Below are positions 17,618-62,142 of a stretch of 64,000 nucleotides of DNA, in pieces. This DNA is from Flavobacteriales bacterium (lineage in GTDB: Bacteria > Bacteroidota > Bacteroidia > Flavobacteriales > Flavobacteriaceae). Location: assembly GCA_017303755.1 (NCBI GenBank), contig JAFLBS010000007.1, forward strand, positions 176,941 through 240,940, written 5' to 3'. How positions within the stretch are numbered: position 1 is the first letter of the stretch; every line of letters starts with the position of its first letter. The position numbers and the translations under genes are program-made. The notes under the pieces were generated by a model. It saw only the letters and a list, made by a program, of their open reading frames with translations, made no database searches and was not told the DNA's origin.

Positions 17618-18061
17618 ATGCCGTATATAAAAGTATATATTCATTTTGTTTGGAGTACTAAAAATAGATATCCATTTTTAAGTACCATTGAAGCAAGACA
17701 ATTGGTTTGGAAACACATTAAAGACAATGCAAATAGCAAAGGTATTTACATTGATTATGTAAATGGATTTGAAGACCATTGTCATTGTTTAATTTCTATG
17801 GGATTCAACCAAAATATTGAAAAAATAATGCAACTTATTAAAGGTGAATCTTCATTTTGGATTAATAAGAATAAGCATTTATTTCCTTGTTTGAAAGGAA
17901 AACGATTTGAATGGCAGGAAGAATATTTTGCATTATCTGTTTCTGAATCAATTTTAAATAGGGTTCGGAATTACATCAAAAATCAAGAAAATCATCATAA
18001 GAAGAAAACGTTTAAAAAGGAGTATGATGAGATTGTGGAGAAGTATAAGATTGATGTTTAA
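17618..18061 (+). CDS. IS200-like HUH transposase, probable RAYT (REP-associated tyrosine transposase)
   Basis: 147 residues. The Y1-transposase fold is recognised from the N-terminal VYIHFVWSTKNRYPFL, the metal-binding HUH motif DHCHCLI (His54, His56), and the catalytic tyrosine helix NRVRNYIKNQ (Tyr119, with Gln123). These enzymes nick single-stranded DNA at hairpins. The gene is flanked by opposite-facing hairpins R1 and R2, and R2 carries a 5' GTAG, the mark of RAYT/REP pairs. No IS200-type subterminal ends and no TnpB are seen, which favours a domesticated RAYT over an active IS. Confidence 0.85.
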   Translation: MPYIKVYIHFVWSTKNRYPFLSTIEARQLVWKHIKDNANSKGIYIDYVNGFEDHCHCLISMGFNQNIEKIMQLIKGESSFWINKNKHLFPCLKGKRFEWQEEYFALSVSESILNRVRNYIKNQENHHKKKTFKKEYDEIVEKYKIDV

Positions 18062-19781: not shown

Positions 19782-19826
19782 TTAACCCAGACCTGCCTGC
19801 CGGCAGGCAGGTAGTAGTGGAAAGCA
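19782..19826 (+). repeat. Dispersed structured element (copy D), interrupted by a 20-bp palindrome
   Basis: The flanks AACCCAGA and TAGTAGTGGAAAGC together match AGCCCAGATCGCAGTGGAAAGC of the copy at 41190. The two halves are separated exactly by CCTGCCTGCCGGCAGGCAGG (19792-19811), which forms a perfect 22-bp palindrome with its flanking A and T. Confidence 0.65.
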
Positions 19827-19854
19827 AAACGCTGCAACCCGACTAATTTTTACT

Positions 19855-19890
19855 AAAAAAAAGAGCGACTGTTAAGAAGCTCCTTTTTTT
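19855..19890. terminator. Likely terminator upstream of the metallopeptidase stop
   Basis: An A run and GAGC pair with GCTC and a T run around a loop of about 12 nt, with one bulge. It is close to symmetrical, so either strand could use it. Confidence 0.45.
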
Positions 19891-19945
19891 TATATAAAAA
19901 TGTTGGGTTGCGGTGTTTTCTTGAAACGAATAGCTGGATGGGTTT

Positions 19946-41165: not shown

Positions 41166-41549
41166 TTTCCACTGAAAAACAACTCGTACTAGCCCAGATC
41201 GCAGTGGAAAGCTTTGCTAGCAGAACGACTATTTTTTATTGACAGTACACCGCGACCAACGGAAGCGCGTGGAATGGCTTAGAAAAAAAGGAGTAATGGT
41301 AGCAAACTTGTAACGAAGAGCTGGAATTAGCTTCTAGAGAAGTTTCAAGTTTTATTTCGCTGCGCTACATACAATTCGGCTTCGCCTCGGGTCAAGTTTC
41401 AGGTTGATGGTGTTGAAAATGCCATCTTGTCATACAATTTACATAAAAAACTGCCAAAATCACCATAATTCTCTATTGGCATAATGATTGCTTTTTGTGA
41501 ATCAAGTTTTGAATAGAAATAAAAAACGCACAATAAAATAATAAAAAAA
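41166..41549. other. Intergenic region between rarD and dnaK
   Basis: 384 bp without a supported gene. It holds copy C of the dispersed structured element at its left end (41190 on), a short AAGTTTCAAGTTT word stretch near 41341 and the dnaK leader. No clear TAnnTTTG is seen for dnaK. An antisense frame that overlaps dnaK is a shadow. Confidence 0.6.
41190..41212 (+). repeat. Dispersed structured element, copy C (5' half clear)
   Basis: TAGCCCAGATCGCAG then TGGAAAGC matches the 5' half of the dispersed element. A possible 3' partner with GGAAGCGCGTGGAA lies at about 41258-41271. It starts 24 bp after the rarD stop. Confidence 0.6.
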
Positions 41550-47146: not shown

Positions 47147-47176
47147 TTGCAAAAATATAAAAAGATTGTATCTTTG
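47147..47176 (+). promoter_or_regulatory. Promoter of the SRP RNA (TTG-N19-TATCTTTG)
   Basis: TTG at 47147-47149 and TATCTTTG at 47169-47176 are 19 bp apart. The predicted start (about 47181) coincides with the first paired base of the RNA. Confidence 0.8.
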
Positions 47177-47180
47177 CCGC

Positions 47181-47274
47181 GGCAAGTCCTACACGACCAG
47201 CTCCTGCAGAATCCTCCAGGATGGGAACATAGCAAAGGTATGCGGTTGTAGCGGTGCGATGTAGGTCGCTTGCC
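47181..47274 (+). ncRNA. ffs: Small signal recognition particle RNA (4.5S type)
   Basis: 94 nt forming one long hairpin: GGCAAG at 47181 pairs with CTTGCC ending at 47274, and CCTACA with TGTAGG inside. The apical part (CCAGGATGGGAAC, then ATAGCAAAGG) corresponds to the SRP tetraloop and the AGG/AGCA symmetric loop that bind Ffh. It is preceded by a perfect promoter and followed by a T run. It guides Ffh to nascent membrane proteins. Confidence 0.9.
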
Positions 47275-47283
47275 ATTTTTTAG

Positions 47284-48893: not shown

Positions 48894-49697
48894 ATGAATA
48901 GAGTAGTACTAATTACAGGTGGTTCCTCAGGAATTGGAAAATCGATAGGCGAGTTTTTACACGCCAAAGGTTTTACCGTTTATGGAACCAGTAGAAATCC
49001 AGAGCGCGTTTCAGGTTCGGTTTTTCCGTTAATTGCTTTGGATGTTAGGGATAAAAATAGCATTCAGCAAGCAGTTGCAGAAGTAATTGCTCAATCGGGT
49101 AGAATAGACGTAGTGGTCAATAACGCCGGAGTTGGAATTACTGGTCCAATTGAAGAGATTCCGACCGAAGAAATCAAAAACAATTTTGAAACTAATTTGT
49201 TTGGACCTATTGAAGTGATGAAAGCCGTTTTACCACAAATGCGTTTGCAACACTCGGGTTTGATTATCAATATCACATCGATTGCTGCGTATATGGGTTT
49301 GCCTTATCGCGGAATTTACTCTGCATCAAAAGGTGCGCTTGAATTGATTACCGAAGCTTTGCGAATGGAAGTGAAGTCGTTTGGAATTCACATTACCAAT
49401 GTCGCTCCTGGTGATTTTGCAACGAATATTGCTGCTGGGCGTTATCACGCGCCGTTAGTGAAAGGATCGGCTTATGAAGTTCCGTATGGGAATACCTTAA
49501 AAATGATGGACGAGCACGTAGACAGCGGTAGTAATCCGAATGAAATGGCAGAAGCGATTTATAAAATAATTCAAAATCCGAATCCGAAGATACATTACAA
49601 AGTAGGTGTTTTTATGCAAAAATTTTCAATCGTATTGAAACGAATTTTACCTGATAAAGTGTATGAAAAAATGCTAATGAATCACTATAAATTGTAA
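48894..49697 (+). CDS. Short-chain dehydrogenase/reductase
   Basis: 267 residues, classical SDR. The cofactor motif TGGSSGIGKSIG is at residues 7-18, followed by NNAGVG, a catalytic Ser in INITSIAAYMG and the YxxxK motif in YSASKGAL. The preference for NADPH is suggested by basic residues after the first strand (TSRNPERV). Substrate unknown. Its leader consists of two word arrays, and another array begins 2 bp after its stop codon. Confidence 0.93.
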   Translation: MNRVVLITGGSSGIGKSIGEFLHAKGFTVYGTSRNPERVSGSVFPLIALDVRDKNSIQQAVAEVIAQSGRIDVVVNNAGVGITGPIEEIPTEEIKNNFETNLFGPIEVMKAVLPQMRLQHSGLIINITSIAAYMGLPYRGIYSASKGALELITEALRMEVKSFGIHITNVAPGDFATNIAAGRYHAPLVKGSAYEVPYGNTLKMMDEHVDSGSNPNEMAEAIYKIIQNPNPKIHYKVGVFMQKFSIVLKRILPDKVYEKMLMNHYKL

Positions 49698-49698
49698 A

Positions 49699-49740
49699 TG
49701 TCAATATCAATGTCAATATCAATGTCAATATCAATGTCAA
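49699..49740 (+). repeat. 12-bp tandem array TGTCAATATCAA x3.5
   Basis: Three full 12-bp units and a half unit; equally readable as alternating hexamers TGTCAA/TATCAA. It starts 2 bp after the SDR stop and is followed by 60 bp of related TTGAAATT/GTAATTG words. Confidence 0.9.
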
Positions 49741-49813
49741 AAGTCAATTGAAATTATTGATATTGAATTTTGTAATTGTAATTGAAATTGAATTTGTAAT
49801 TTTGCACTCAATT

Positions 49814-49880
49814 GCGTTAGGGATAAGAGCGATATCCTTTTTTGAAGAATGAAAAAAAGATAAAGCGGATAGCCCGACGC
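49814..49880 (+). repeat. Dispersed structured element, copy A (complete)
   Basis: 67 bp. GCGTTAGGG (49814-49822) pairs with CCCGACGC (49873-49880) with one bulge. An inner stem pairs TATCcTTTTTT with AAAAAAGATA. Between the stems lies a symmetric 10/10 internal loop rich in AAGmGCGr, the part conserved between copies. Confidence 0.75.
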
Positions 49881-49908
49881 GAGGCACGAAGCGGAACGCT
49901 CAAATAAA

Positions 49909-49940
49909 ACTCAGTCGCTCAGCAACTCAGTCACTCAAAA
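49909..49940 (+). repeat. Octamer array nCTCAGnn, second locus
   Basis: ACTCAGTC, GCTCAGCA, ACTCAGTC, ACTCAAAA in phase, ending 27 bp before the transaldolase start. Same unit, orientation and distance-to-start as at 48845. Confidence 0.8.
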
Positions 49941-49967
49941 AGAATAAACACAACTTAATTATATACT

Positions 49968-50624
49968 ATGAAATTTTTTATTGACACAGCCAATTTAAAC
50001 GACATTAAAGAAGCGCAATCGTTGGGCGTTTTGGATGGAGTAACTACTAATCCGTCGTTGATGGCAAAAGAGGGAATCACGGGGAAAAACAACATTTTGA
50101 AGCATTACGTTGACATTTGCAACATTGTAGATGGCGAAGTAAGTGCCGAAGTAAATGCCGTTGATTATGAAGGAATGATTAAAGAAGGCGAGGAATTGTC
50201 CGAATTGCACGAGCAAATTGTGGTGAAATTGCCTATGACTAAAGAAGGTGTAAAAGCGTGTAAATATTTTTCTGATAAAGGAATTAAAACGAATGTTACA
50301 TTGGTTTTTTCGGCTGGACAAGCGATTTTAGCTGCTAAAGCGGGAGCAACTTTTGTATCACCATTTATTGGACGTTTGGATGATGTTTCTACAGATGGTT
50401 TGAATTTGATTCAGGAAATCAGAGAGATTTATGACAATTATGGTTATGAAACACAAATTTTAGCGGCGTCTGTTCGTCACACTATGCACATTGTAAATTG
50501 TGCTAAAATTGGTGCTGATGTAATGACTGGACCATTATCGGCTATTTTAGGATTATTGAAACATCCGTTAACTGATATTGGTTTGGCTCAGTTTATTGCT
50601 GATTTTGAGAAAGGGAATAAGTAG
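49968..50624 (+). CDS. Transaldolase / fructose-6-phosphate aldolase (short form)
   Basis: 218 residues, the compact TalC/Fsa type. The N-terminal [16 protein letters not shown] and [11 protein letters not shown], the Schiff-base lysine in VKLPMTKEG, and [15 protein letters not shown] are typical. It exchanges dihydroxyacetone units in the pentose phosphate pathway (transaldolase) or cleaves fructose-6-phosphate; most flavobacterial members of this length are annotated as transaldolase. It has word array, structured element and array in its leader, and a bidirectional terminator after. Confidence 0.94.
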
Positions 50625-50670
50625 AGTTTACAGTCGCAGTCACAGTTTTCAGTAATTGCGTTTAAATAAA

Positions 50671-50704
50671 AAAAGTCGATTTTCAGCATAGAAAATCGAC
50701 TTTT
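50671..50704. terminator. Strong bidirectional terminator
   Basis: AAAAGTCGATTTTC (50671-50684) pairs perfectly with GAAAATCGACTTTT (50691-50704), a 14-bp stem, 6-nt loop, T run. Confidence 0.9.
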
Positions 50705-50738
50705 TTTATTTCAAAATTTTTAATTTTGTACTAGCATA

Positions 50739-50798
50739 CTCCGACTCCGACTCCGACTCCGACTCCGACTCCGACTCCGACTCCGACTCCGACTGCGA
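50739..50798. repeat. Hexamer array (CTCCGA) x9 plus one variant
   Basis: Nine perfect 6-bp units and one CTGCGA, ending directly at the TAG stop (50799-50801) of the minus-strand TlpA-like gene. Read-through would add a Ser/Glu dipeptide repeat. Confidence 0.92.
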
Positions 50799-52205
50799 CT
50801 ACCTCAAATTCTCTTCAAACTTCGCATCCATAATATTAGTAAAGGCATTTTTAATTGTGCCATCACCATTGACAACTATCGTGCGGTGAATTTTGGTAAT
50901 TACCCATTTGTCTCTTATGTCTTCAAAATCGGCACATCGTAGTTCGGTGATGTCTTTGAAATTGTATTTCGTAAGCGATTTTTTCCAGTCTTCGTGTTTG
51001 TCTAAATTGATAGCTATAAAATGGTAATTGGGGTATTTTTTCTTGAATTCAGCTATTTTTTTATGAGCTAAAACCATGTGAGAGTTGGCGTTTTCTGTCC
51101 AGAAAAAAATAATGGTATTTTTAGTAATTAAGTCGACAGAGTTGTGCTTTTTTCCACTAGAATCAACCAATTCTACAGAAGGTAATTTCTTGCCTTCCAA
51201 CAATAATTGAATGGCATCTCCAATTTTATTGATTTCGTTTTTCTGACTCTTATCAGTAGAAAATTTGTGGTAAATTTTTAAGAACTCTTGATTGTTGACT
51301 ACGTTTTGATCTTCTAATAAATATTGAAAAGCAATATTGTTTAGAATCTTGTTTTTTACTTCTGAATTTTTAATCAACGTATCGGCCACATTCAATTTGT
51401 TGATGTTGGTTTTTAAAGCCAAATCTACTTCGGTAAAATGATTGTGGTATTTAATCGTTGAAACGTTGTTCAGCATATGATTCAAATACATTACAAAAGG
51501 TGAGTAGTCGGCCAATGCAACGTTATTAAAATCAATGCTTTCTCTATAGGAATAGTATGATTTGGGTAACTTTTCATAAACATCTTTCCCAGTTCGCATG
51601 TTATGAATCATAGGATAGATTTCCTTTTTGGTGTAGTGTGAATACAAATAAGAAGCTTTAGCAAAAACATCAAATTCGTCACTCCATTTTACATTTTCCT
51701 TTTTCTTGGTATAAAACTGTTCATTTTTTTTATGAACAGAATCAATCACTTTATTGAATTGATCTAAGTCATAATCAAATGCCTCAAAAAGAAAATCTTT
51801 GTCTTTTTCATTTTTTAAATACATCTCCATTAAGAAGTTGTTTTTTTCATCACCACGTCCACAAAACACAACTGATTCGTCAAAATCTTTAGAATTGACA
51901 TGAACCATTATACTGTCGTTTTTGTCAAAATAGACATATTGGTATTCAGGTTCGTGTTTAAAGGTATATAGACCAGGTGCGAGTGAATCGAATTTCTTGA
52001 AAAAAGTATTGTCTTTGTTTAAGTGAATAGTGTCAATGACTTCATTGTTCTTGCAAAACAAAACAAAGCGATTATTAGGATTAGTCACTTCACCTCCAAA
52101 ATAAGCTACAAAATTATCATTTTGAAACTCTTTCTTACACGAAGATAAAAGGGGTAGAAGTAGACCTAAAAAAAACAATGTAGAAATATGGGGTACTCTT
52201 TTCAT
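50799..52205 (-). CDS. TlpA-like thioredoxin-fold lipoprotein without CxxC
   Basis: 468 residues. A lipoprotein signal (LLLPLLSSCKKE) is followed by a beta domain (AYFGGEVTNPNNRFVLF, typical of Bacteroidetes TlpA-like proteins) and a long helical middle. The thioredoxin-like C-terminal domain (about 330-468) runs SVDLITKNTIIFFWTENANSH, where the CxxC should be, so the redox cysteines are replaced. It then has KHEDWKKSL and KIHRTIVVNGDG (the cis-Pro position is also lost). It is probably a binding or structural protein in the envelope. Confidence 0.82.
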   Translation of the reverse strand: MKRVPHISTLFFLGLLLPLLSSCKKEFQNDNFVAYFGGEVTNPNNRFVLFCKNNEVIDTIHLNKDNTFFKKFDSLAPGLYTFKHEPEYQYVYFDKNDSIMVHVNSKDFDESVVFCGRGDEKNNFLMEMYLKNEKDKDFLFEAFDYDLDQFNKVIDSVHKKNEQFYTKKKENVKWSDEFDVFAKASYLYSHYTKKEIYPMIHNMRTGKDVYEKLPKSYYSYRESIDFNNVALADYSPFVMYLNHMLNNVSTIKYHNHFTEVDLALKTNINKLNVADTLIKNSEVKNKILNNIAFQYLLEDQNVVNNQEFLKIYHKFSTDKSQKNEINKIGDAIQLLLEGKKLPSVELVDSSGKKHNSVDLITKNTIIFFWTENANSHMVLAHKKIAEFKKKYPNYHFIAINLDKHEDWKKSLTKYNFKDITELRCADFEDIRDKWVITKIHRTIVVNGDGTIKNAFTNIMDAKFEENLR

Positions 52206-61901: not shown

Positions 61902-61940
61902 TTGTTGCAGAAGCAGACAATTAGAGTTTCATCACAACAT

Positions 61941-62065
61941 TCGTCCCGCTTTCGGCTGTATCTGCCATTGCGAGGAACTTAGCCTTTCATTGCGAGGAGC
62001 GAAGCAATCTAAAAATTGATGTTCACCGTTGCGCAATGTCAGGATACTTGCCTCTATCGGGGCTA
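61941..62065 (-). repeat. Dispersed structured element, copy B, with nested ATTGCGAGG elements
   Basis: Reverse strand: 5' half TAGCCCCGATAGAGGCAAG (from 62065), 3' half AGATACAGCCGAAAGCGGGA (to 61941). Relative to copy A the pairing blocks are exchanged, CCC with GGG instead of GGG with CCC. The loop between the halves holds the elements at 61966-61983 and 61987-62010. Confidence 0.7.
61987..62010 (+). repeat. ATTGCGAGG-type element, full copy
   Basis: TCATTGCGAGGAGCGAAGCA followed by ATCT. A partial copy (CATTGCGAGGAACTTAGC) lies just upstream at 61966-61983. Confidence 0.8.
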
Positions 62066-62142
62066 AAATAAAACCATAACAATTCTTAGAAACTTTCCTA
62101 AAACTTCCCGAACTTTGTGATAGAGTTTCAAGTTTCAAGTTG

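Follow-up and report, generated by a model that had tools for sequence, protein, structure and literature searches.

The structured element examined here, in a 64,000-nucleotide stretch of a Flavobacteriales genome (the window), is with very high confidence a copy of Flavo-1 (Rfam RF01705), a known yet unexplained repeated element of flavobacteria. It belongs to a subclass, referred to here as type 2, whose members are three-way junctions with the Flavo-1 hairpin as one arm (P2). Copies of the family are dispersed, lying mainly in intergenic DNA and in either orientation. Their core is conserved and their hairpin tips are exchanged, and the single pair of species compared has most of its resolvable copies at shared sites. 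We give about an even chance to the reading that Flavo-1 is a family of REP-like hairpins that fold on a specific strand and have no known transposase, and that this copy has perhaps been co-opted as an mRNA leader.

Identification of the element as Flavo-1

On the plus strand of the window, the Rfam model matches positions 49809-49883 with 42.6 bits (E 8.6e-6), just over the curated cutoff of 42. A sequence-only reading of the same DNA knew of no named family for the element, which was mistaken; the two stems that it described, and the purine-rich, symmetric internal loop, do occur where it placed them. The window copy has the pairs of the Flavo-1 consensus (ccG-Cgg, U-A, N-N', GC and AAUC-GauU) round the 3x3 purine loops, with the outer CCG/CGG replaced by GGG/CCC, a compensated change that occurs in other copies too (26 CCG/CGG and 13 GGG/CCC among 40 harvested sequences). 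Of the consensus flanks, UAGCC on the 5' side and GA on the 3' side, it retains GA but carries GCGTTA in place of UAGCC, like other type-2 copies.

The element is dispersed, as the sequence-only reading had it: the genome contains at least 90 Flavo-1 matches, at least 80 of them above the cutoff, a count based on 150 scored candidates of 1,233 and on a list from which the window's copy at 41187 is missing. That second copy (41187-41331, plus strand) scores 56.4 bits against Rfam, and a sub-threshold match of 30 bits lies at 61938-62068 on the minus strand. Our own covariance model recovered the window copy (model R1; Table 1), and placed further copies on the plus strand at 41195-41323 and, more weakly, at 19808-19936 (E 0.003).

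The 19808 and 41187 copies are both long-tipped and of Flavo-1 type. By eye, the tip of the former holds a further repeat, of the AAAGAGCGACTG..AAGCTCCTTTTTT type found in locus L027 too, and the tip of the latter something resembling it, giving hairpin repeats nested in hairpin repeats. REP-like repeats, TGTCACCCTGAGCGCAGTCGAAGGG or TGTCATTGCG...CGCAATGACA, are borne by the tips of L007, L016, L017, L019, L023 and L026 (elements from 1501), as if tips were preferred landing sites.

Architecture of the type-2 junction

With high confidence, the element is a three-way junction whose arms are P1, P2 (the Flavo-1 hairpin) and a small P3 (Table 1). The start assigned to it by the sequence-only reading holds, but its end moves from 49880 to 49899. 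The outer stem drawn there, GCGTTAGGG/CCCGACGC, is the lowest-energy fold of the window copy, whereas comparing copies places GCGTT opposite AACGC, 76 nt downstream. The two folds are close in energy (drawn stem -21.6 versus forced junction -19.0 kcal/mol); a CGC at the start of P3, where most other copies read GACCC, lets them compete in this copy. The 10/10 internal loop is present but partly paired: two 3x3 purine loops are separated by a 2-bp GC stem, and a U-A pair and a variable N:N' pair are formed as well. Against shuffled sequences, the whole element folds with a z-score of -2.38 as RNA and -2.16 as DNA (5 of 200 shuffles as good in each case).

Table 1 Features of the element and its surroundings in the window
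Feature	Position	Strand	Evidence
Short-chain dehydrogenase gene, upstream	48894..49697	+	PF00106, 165 bits
Putative -7 promoter box TAATTTTG	49797..49804	+	Sequence match; 9 nt ahead of the element
Type-2 Flavo-1 element, three-way junction	49814..49899	+	Rfam match 49809-49883; type-2 pattern with downstream AACGC matches, reversed control 0
P1 5' strand GCGTT	49814..49818	+	Exact reverse complement downstream in 53/57 type-2 elements
P2, Flavo-1 hairpin	49820..49875	+	R1 match, 37.1 bits; pair counts
P2, order of parts: GGG/CCC, A.G, U-A, N:N' (A49825-T49870), 3x3 purine loop, GC/GC, second 3x3 loop, ATC stem, T6/A6 arm		+	
P3 hairpin CGC-GAGGCACGAA-GCG	49878..49893	+	Sequence and constrained fold
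P1 3' strand AACGC	49895..49899	+	Same partner counts as 5' strand
Fructose-6-phosphate aldolase/transaldolase (TalC/FSA) gene	49968..50624	+	TIGR00875, 278 bits (cutoff 246); PF00923

Across 100 matches from 98 sources, nearly all picked for holding an element, the core consists of GGG or CCG, A.G, U-A, N:N', a GNA/GGA 3x3 loop, a 2-bp stem and a second 3x3 loop, followed by the AAUC stem running into a free tip. Two outer forms surround it. Type 1 has TAGCC on the 5' side of the hairpin and GA on the 3' side, invariant at every base in 41 of 41 copies from other genomes; among 28 copies of the own genome, each base of TAGCC is kept in 89-96% and GA in 100%. Type 2, the form in the window, consists of GCGTKA, the hairpin, GACC and a third arm closing on the complement of GCGTK; P3 varies among copies in length and sequence.

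P1 is supported by compensated changes. In a harvest that did not require a partner, the exact complement starts within 62 nt downstream in 53 of the 57 type-2 elements, and the fifth base of the P1 5' strand, in the 50 elements with a readable partner, forms G:C in 30, T:A in 19 and T:T in 1. The larger type-2 set has the exact partner in 66 of 70 elements, with N:N' occurring as T:A (30), A:T (29), G:C (4), C:G (2) and A:A (5). The window element shares the P2 hairpin, purine loops and spacing of Flavo-1 as described by Weinberg et al. 2010 (PMC2864571, in the parts consulted) and passes the cutoff; the Rfam consensus differs in comprising the hairpin with 8 nt flanks only, with neither P1 nor P3. 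The extended type-2 junction is a form that the Rfam model of Flavo-1 lacks.

Covariation and the folded strand

Because regular-expression harvests failed or missed most copies (one returned 6 false hits, a later one 40 sequences of which one was false), we turned to a covariance model, trained on 24 of 39 trimmed sequences. The 15 left out were mostly one-nucleotide-shorter variants, the window copy among them, together with sequences with irregular arms, a near-duplicate and the false hit. The sequence-only reading had named two outcomes that would refute it, a lack of covariation above background and copies confined to this genome, and neither was observed. The covariation score is 0.483 compared with 0.128 for shuffled alignments, none of 500 shuffles scores as high, and slid controls reach at most 0.110; matches occur in other Bacteroidetes genomes. 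Both results support its description of a dispersed structured element.

In the 100-match alignment, 98.6% of cells are paired and double changes occur at 15 of 16 pairs, in an alignment that was fitted to the model and so leans towards the structure, the model itself having been trained on low-wobble sequences. All four Watson-Crick types occur at N:N' (A:T 47, T:A 32, G:C 14, C:G 4), with A:A in the remaining 3.

Wobble is scarce. At pairs using at least two Watson-Crick types, it accounts for 10 of 1,424 cells in Flavo-1 versus 25 of 303 in 5S rRNA of the same order (127 of 686 over all 5S pairs), the control being one family with a predicted structure (24 sequences, RNAalifold). These came from 30 loci fetched, second copies and partial matches being left out. 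Small SRP RNA was rejected as a control, being too invariant to inform (29 of 30 loci aligned), as was tRNA, of which too few lay within loci. The core wobble cells are T.G in 10 cases, against 7 A.C cells, all in one bulge-adjacent column; the tips have 6 G.T/T.G cells, no A.C and 2 others. The asymmetry is thus 16 to 0 without the bulge-adjacent column and 16 to 7 with its A.C cells. Because the wobble cells are T.G or G.T, against A.C, the plus strand is probably the folded one, and the evidence indicates selection for folding of a single strand.

Stems with almost exclusively Watson-Crick pairs suggest folded DNA, and not wobble-tolerant RNA, as the functional or proof-read form. The scarcity of wobble favours folded DNA, or conversion between copies, without being proof of either: 4 G.T cells in viral contigs and the 7 A.C cells count against the folded-DNA reading, and wobble may be disfavoured in RNA too, by closing pairs beside G.A loops. 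Together with placement in either orientation, it does not look like a discrete RNA gene.

Distribution in genomes and viral contigs

The strict type-2 pattern was matched in 127 of 198 congeneric genomes. At the level of the family, a somewhat relaxed version was matched in 59 of 120 genomes, representing 58 of 119 genera; the reversed-pattern control gave 0 in each case. Flavo-1 matches were found in 26 of 40 relatives, in 4 of 16 genera, and range within the genus from 0 (G018 and G020) to at least 88 (G004) per genome, the high counts being lower bounds from at most 89 scored candidates per genome. In a sample of the phylum, 17 of 118 genomes have matches, 14 of them above the cutoff, and 14 control genomes have none. 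Of 30 type-2 loci fetched, 13 were compared with Rfam. Flavo-1 was matched in four, and the other nine (L182, L186, L189, L198, L204, L207, L208, L210 and L211), all short-tipped, exceed no family cutoff. The remaining Rfam matches of type-2 loci, up to E 0.5, fall far under their cutoffs, such as a Thr_leader match over the third-arm region of L208 (28.4 bits, cutoff 55).

Viral contigs gave no match to the type-1 pattern, but 68 stretches of them match that of type 2, representing 56 distinct elements. The exact P1 partner is present in 53 of these, and N:N' is Watson-Crick in 50, G.T in 4 (perhaps a register shift) and otherwise in 2. Many of these contigs may be prophage or host DNA. Four of them, L374, L400, L437 and L439 (about 12-39 kb), carry a type-2 element with a near-identical P2 (GATGTTGGCTTTGCTCGATACG...), a copy that is possibly prophage-borne; by eye, a gene resembling a helix-turn-helix regulator lies near the element in L400.

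Gene context and comparison of two species

Tandem genes flank 65 of the 100 matches, 40 of which are in sense and 25 in antisense. Divergent genes flank another 14 and convergent genes 8; the rest overlap an ORF in crude calling (9) or lie at edges (4). An excess of sense copies of this size (40:25) would fit with some RNA role. Among 28 dispersed type-2 loci, a -7 box within 35 nt upstream is found only in L196, the aldolase-site locus. Of three other type-2 copies in the own genome, one lies antisense between galactokinase-like and beta-galactosidase-like genes, one has convergent neighbours and one is within a tandem pair, in sense (genes named by eye). A consistent sense position upstream of related genes, the mark of a riboswitch or leader, is found at the aldolase site only.

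The genomes G124 and G072 (87% identity) share 17 of the 20 resolved Flavo-1 sites. G124 has 47 matches, of which 35 loci were examined; 19 aligned to a G072 piece on both flanks, with the element in both species at 16 and not at L213 or L224, the weak L304/L318 being left out of the shared-site count. The 17th shared site is L230, which matched on one flank and was spanned in a separate comparison, and L240 is the third site at which the G072 element is lost. The remaining 14 loci have no usable counterpart among the G072 pieces fetched. At the shared sites L226, L238, L292 and L297 the flanks also resemble each other, and the order along both genomes fits.

In 14 pairs (16 of the 17 entered, the type-2 pair L309 being left out, and two unsplittable), identity is 550/616 (89%) in the core, 243/417 (58%) in the tip, and 458/713 (64%) and 510/734 (69%) in the flanks; the core value is somewhat inflated, as both species' copies had to score as hits. 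Tips are exchanged as blocks at fixed sites (L238/L227, L230/L214 and L295/L316). The G072 counterpart is missing or replaced at three sites, of which L240/L256 looks like a deletion with the 3' end left behind, and no recent insertion was caught in this comparison. Inspection of G124 positions by eye, the origin not being known, gave no reportable replication-strand bias.

The aldolase site

The window copy is presumed, from sequence, to lie in the 5' UTR of the aldolase/transaldolase gene, a gene of sugar metabolism. We take the box TAATTTTG to be a match to the Bacteroidetes -7 box TAnnTTTG, with TTG at 49776-49778 as a possible -33 element. By eye, the same box or one differing by a single base is found in most of 30 orthologous intergenic regions, with the element present or absent. 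A type-2 element occurs at 18 of these 30 loci, the own included, and is absent at 12, some of them in close relatives; in 14 of the 18 it starts 9-11 nt past the TTTTG of the box (both counts by eye). The pattern fits 15 of the 18, all with an exact P1 partner, in compensated forms GCGTT/AACGC, GCGTG/CACGC and GCATG/CATGC, and the three with altered feet (L070, L071 and L095) are still recognisable. At least three unrelated kinds of P2 tip occur among these loci.

In the 230 nt upstream of the gene in 80 named genomes, inspection by eye found the element in 11, two of these copies being damaged (L107 and L108), and in addition a relic in L103. The sequence of L117 is that of L077 again, perhaps from one and the same genome. 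In Polaribacter, P1 is GCATT/AATGC. The aldolase-site element is thus an old site, with the structure kept where present, and dispensable. A terminator scan of 49600-50800 did not call the hairpin.

A 12-bp tandem repeat, GTCAATATCAAT, lies at 49700-49740, just past the dehydrogenase gene, and relatives have similar AT-rich tracts. A Small SRP RNA (RF04183, 100 bits) is encoded close upstream at 47173-47279 on the plus strand, and is found near the dehydrogenase-aldolase region in several relatives as well.

Relation to REP elements and transposases

Profiles for Y1 and RAYT proteins gave no match at E 1e-3 in G004, G011 and G012, which hold at least 88, 44 and 12 Flavo-1 matches. Of 30 Y1 loci fetched, 20 were scanned, and the only Flavo-1 match (36.2 bits, sub-cutoff) lies about 0.5 kb from L067, a RAYT of the own genome (NF047646 above cutoff). 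RAYT-like genes L067, L056 and L053 are flanked by a different palindrome, GCGCGGATTTGCAATCCGTGC, and L055, L057 and L060 by others again. A RAYT or IS200 partner was rejected on these grounds: the profile searches, the Y1 loci scanned against Rfam (20 of 30) and the flanks of RAYT genes.

Palindromes of the form GATAGCGCGGATTTGCAATCCGTGC flank L067 (1407-1962, G000:C15), L056 and L053, and are perhaps the 'atypical structures' of Bacteroidetes subclass 2.6 mentioned in the portion consulted of PMC6006769. The window itself contains an IS200-type Y1 transposase gene at about 17630-17986 on the plus strand (G000:C13:194570-194926).

Flavo-1 resembles the REP or GTAG repeats that accompany RAYTs, as presented in sections of PMC6006769 and PMC3733652, in being dispersed and intergenic and in forming a mismatched hairpin with an unpaired conserved tag at its foot. 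It differs in the tag, having TAGCC or GCGTKA there and not the 5' GT[AG]G, and in length (matches of 51-145 nt versus 21-65 nt for REPs; PMC6006769). No RAYT or other transposase gene flanked by Flavo-1 was found among the 20 Y1 loci scanned, some of which were read, and many copies reside in genomes without a RAYT match. CGTC-tagged REPs are likewise palindromic repeats present in Bacteroidetes, without a dedicated transposase, but have 8-9 bp stems and 4-5 nt loops (PMC3733652, in part). Likening the REP-like TGTC... repeats nested in Flavo-1 tips to the CGTC families is our own tentative reading.

No binding protein or enzyme for Flavo-1 was found, and our confidence in any particular partner is low. 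Integron attC sites have a conserved foot with unpaired bases and a variable terminal hairpin, and fold as single strands. Flavo-1 may be viewed as analogous in foot, tip and single-strand folding only.

Discussion

One rival explanation is a cis-acting RNA: at the aldolase site the three-way junction could be a regulatory or stabilising leader of the aldolase mRNA, with dispersed copies acting in other UTRs. The plus strand is the folding strand, the distance to the -7 box is kept at 14 of the 18 occupied orthologous loci, P1 has an exact partner in all 15 elements fitting the pattern, with compensated forms among them, and the element recurs in 11 of 80 named genomes, Polaribacter included. 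Its absence at 12 of 30 orthologous loci, some in close relatives, the restriction of the box to L196 among dispersed type-2 loci, the antisense, convergent or within-tandem positions of the other type-2 copies of the genome, and the antisense orientation of 25 of 65 tandem-context copies make this explanation rather unlikely. Discrete small-RNA genes, as implied by the Rfam type 'Gene; sRNA', would accord with the strong covariation and are nonetheless very improbable given at least 90 matches in one genome, in both orientations, and the F. psychrophilum transcriptome, in which many Flavo-1 hits lie outside transcribed regions and orientation is indifferent (PMC9723704, in the part consulted).

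Transcription terminators or attenuators would explain a strong hairpin with a T run inside its arm; the lack of a U tract after the hairpin, convergent genes flanking only 8 of 100 matches and the negative scan led us to reject a terminator, and this class of explanation is highly unlikely. A mobile element of the REP or MITE kind, non-autonomous and moved by an IS200 enzyme or a REP-associated tyrosine transposase, is suggested by the REP-like unpaired TAGCC at the hairpin foot, copy numbers that are patchy within the genus, a presence/absence site (L224/L243) and the sub-cutoff match near the RAYT L067. This rival is already weak, and we regard it as improbable: three genomes carry many copies without a Y1 or RAYT match, a single one of 20 Y1 loci scanned has a Flavo-1 match, RAYT-like genes are flanked by other palindromes, and 17 of 20 resolved sites are common to two species at 87% identity.

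In their behaviour, the repeats resemble conserved, folded DNA repeats more than genes for small RNAs. In the REP-like family of folded hairpins that we favour, the plus strand of the repeat would fold as single-stranded nucleic acid, the DNA form arising for example at a replication fork, and a protein would recognise the two 3x3 purine loops together with the junction or the tag (TAGCC in type 1, GCGTKA in type 2). A copy transcribed in sense at the 5' end of an mRNA, presumably as before the aldolase gene, would give the message a stable leader, with possible effects on its stability or translation, a use that would be a secondary co-option and not the reason for the family's existence. A more speculative possibility, which we consider doubtful, is that the whole family is a modular element. 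A conserved three-way-junction chassis (P1, the P2 foot with its two 3x3 purine loops, and P3) would carry unrelated tips, including other palindromic repeats, swapped at fixed sites, and folding of one DNA strand, with hairpin-templated correction or conversion, would keep the stems near-strictly Watson-Crick.

No function is assigned to Flavo-1 in the parts consulted of PMC2864571, PMC9029176 and PMC9723704; the second, a review, names it in a section on the most abundant bacterial sRNA families. The openly available main texts searched, as far as they were covered, yielded no description of the type-2 junction. Nothing relevant appeared among the matches listed for three-way junctions, intergenic repeats or MITEs in Flavobacteriaceae, or in the sections consulted on palindromic or REP repeats in Flavobacterium, including PMC5395568, PMC3733652 and PMC6006769.

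Should Flavo-1 copies prove to be folded DNA repeats, many flavobacterial loci annotated as 'sRNA genes' would be misfiled, and were the modular reading true, Rfam would have filed under small RNA genes a class of maintained single-strand DNA structures with a protein that recognises them. An extended junction model would redraw the limits of the Flavo-1 family. The aldolase leader offers one fixed site, occupied in many species and missing in close relatives, at which the RNA and DNA explanations are separable by experiment.
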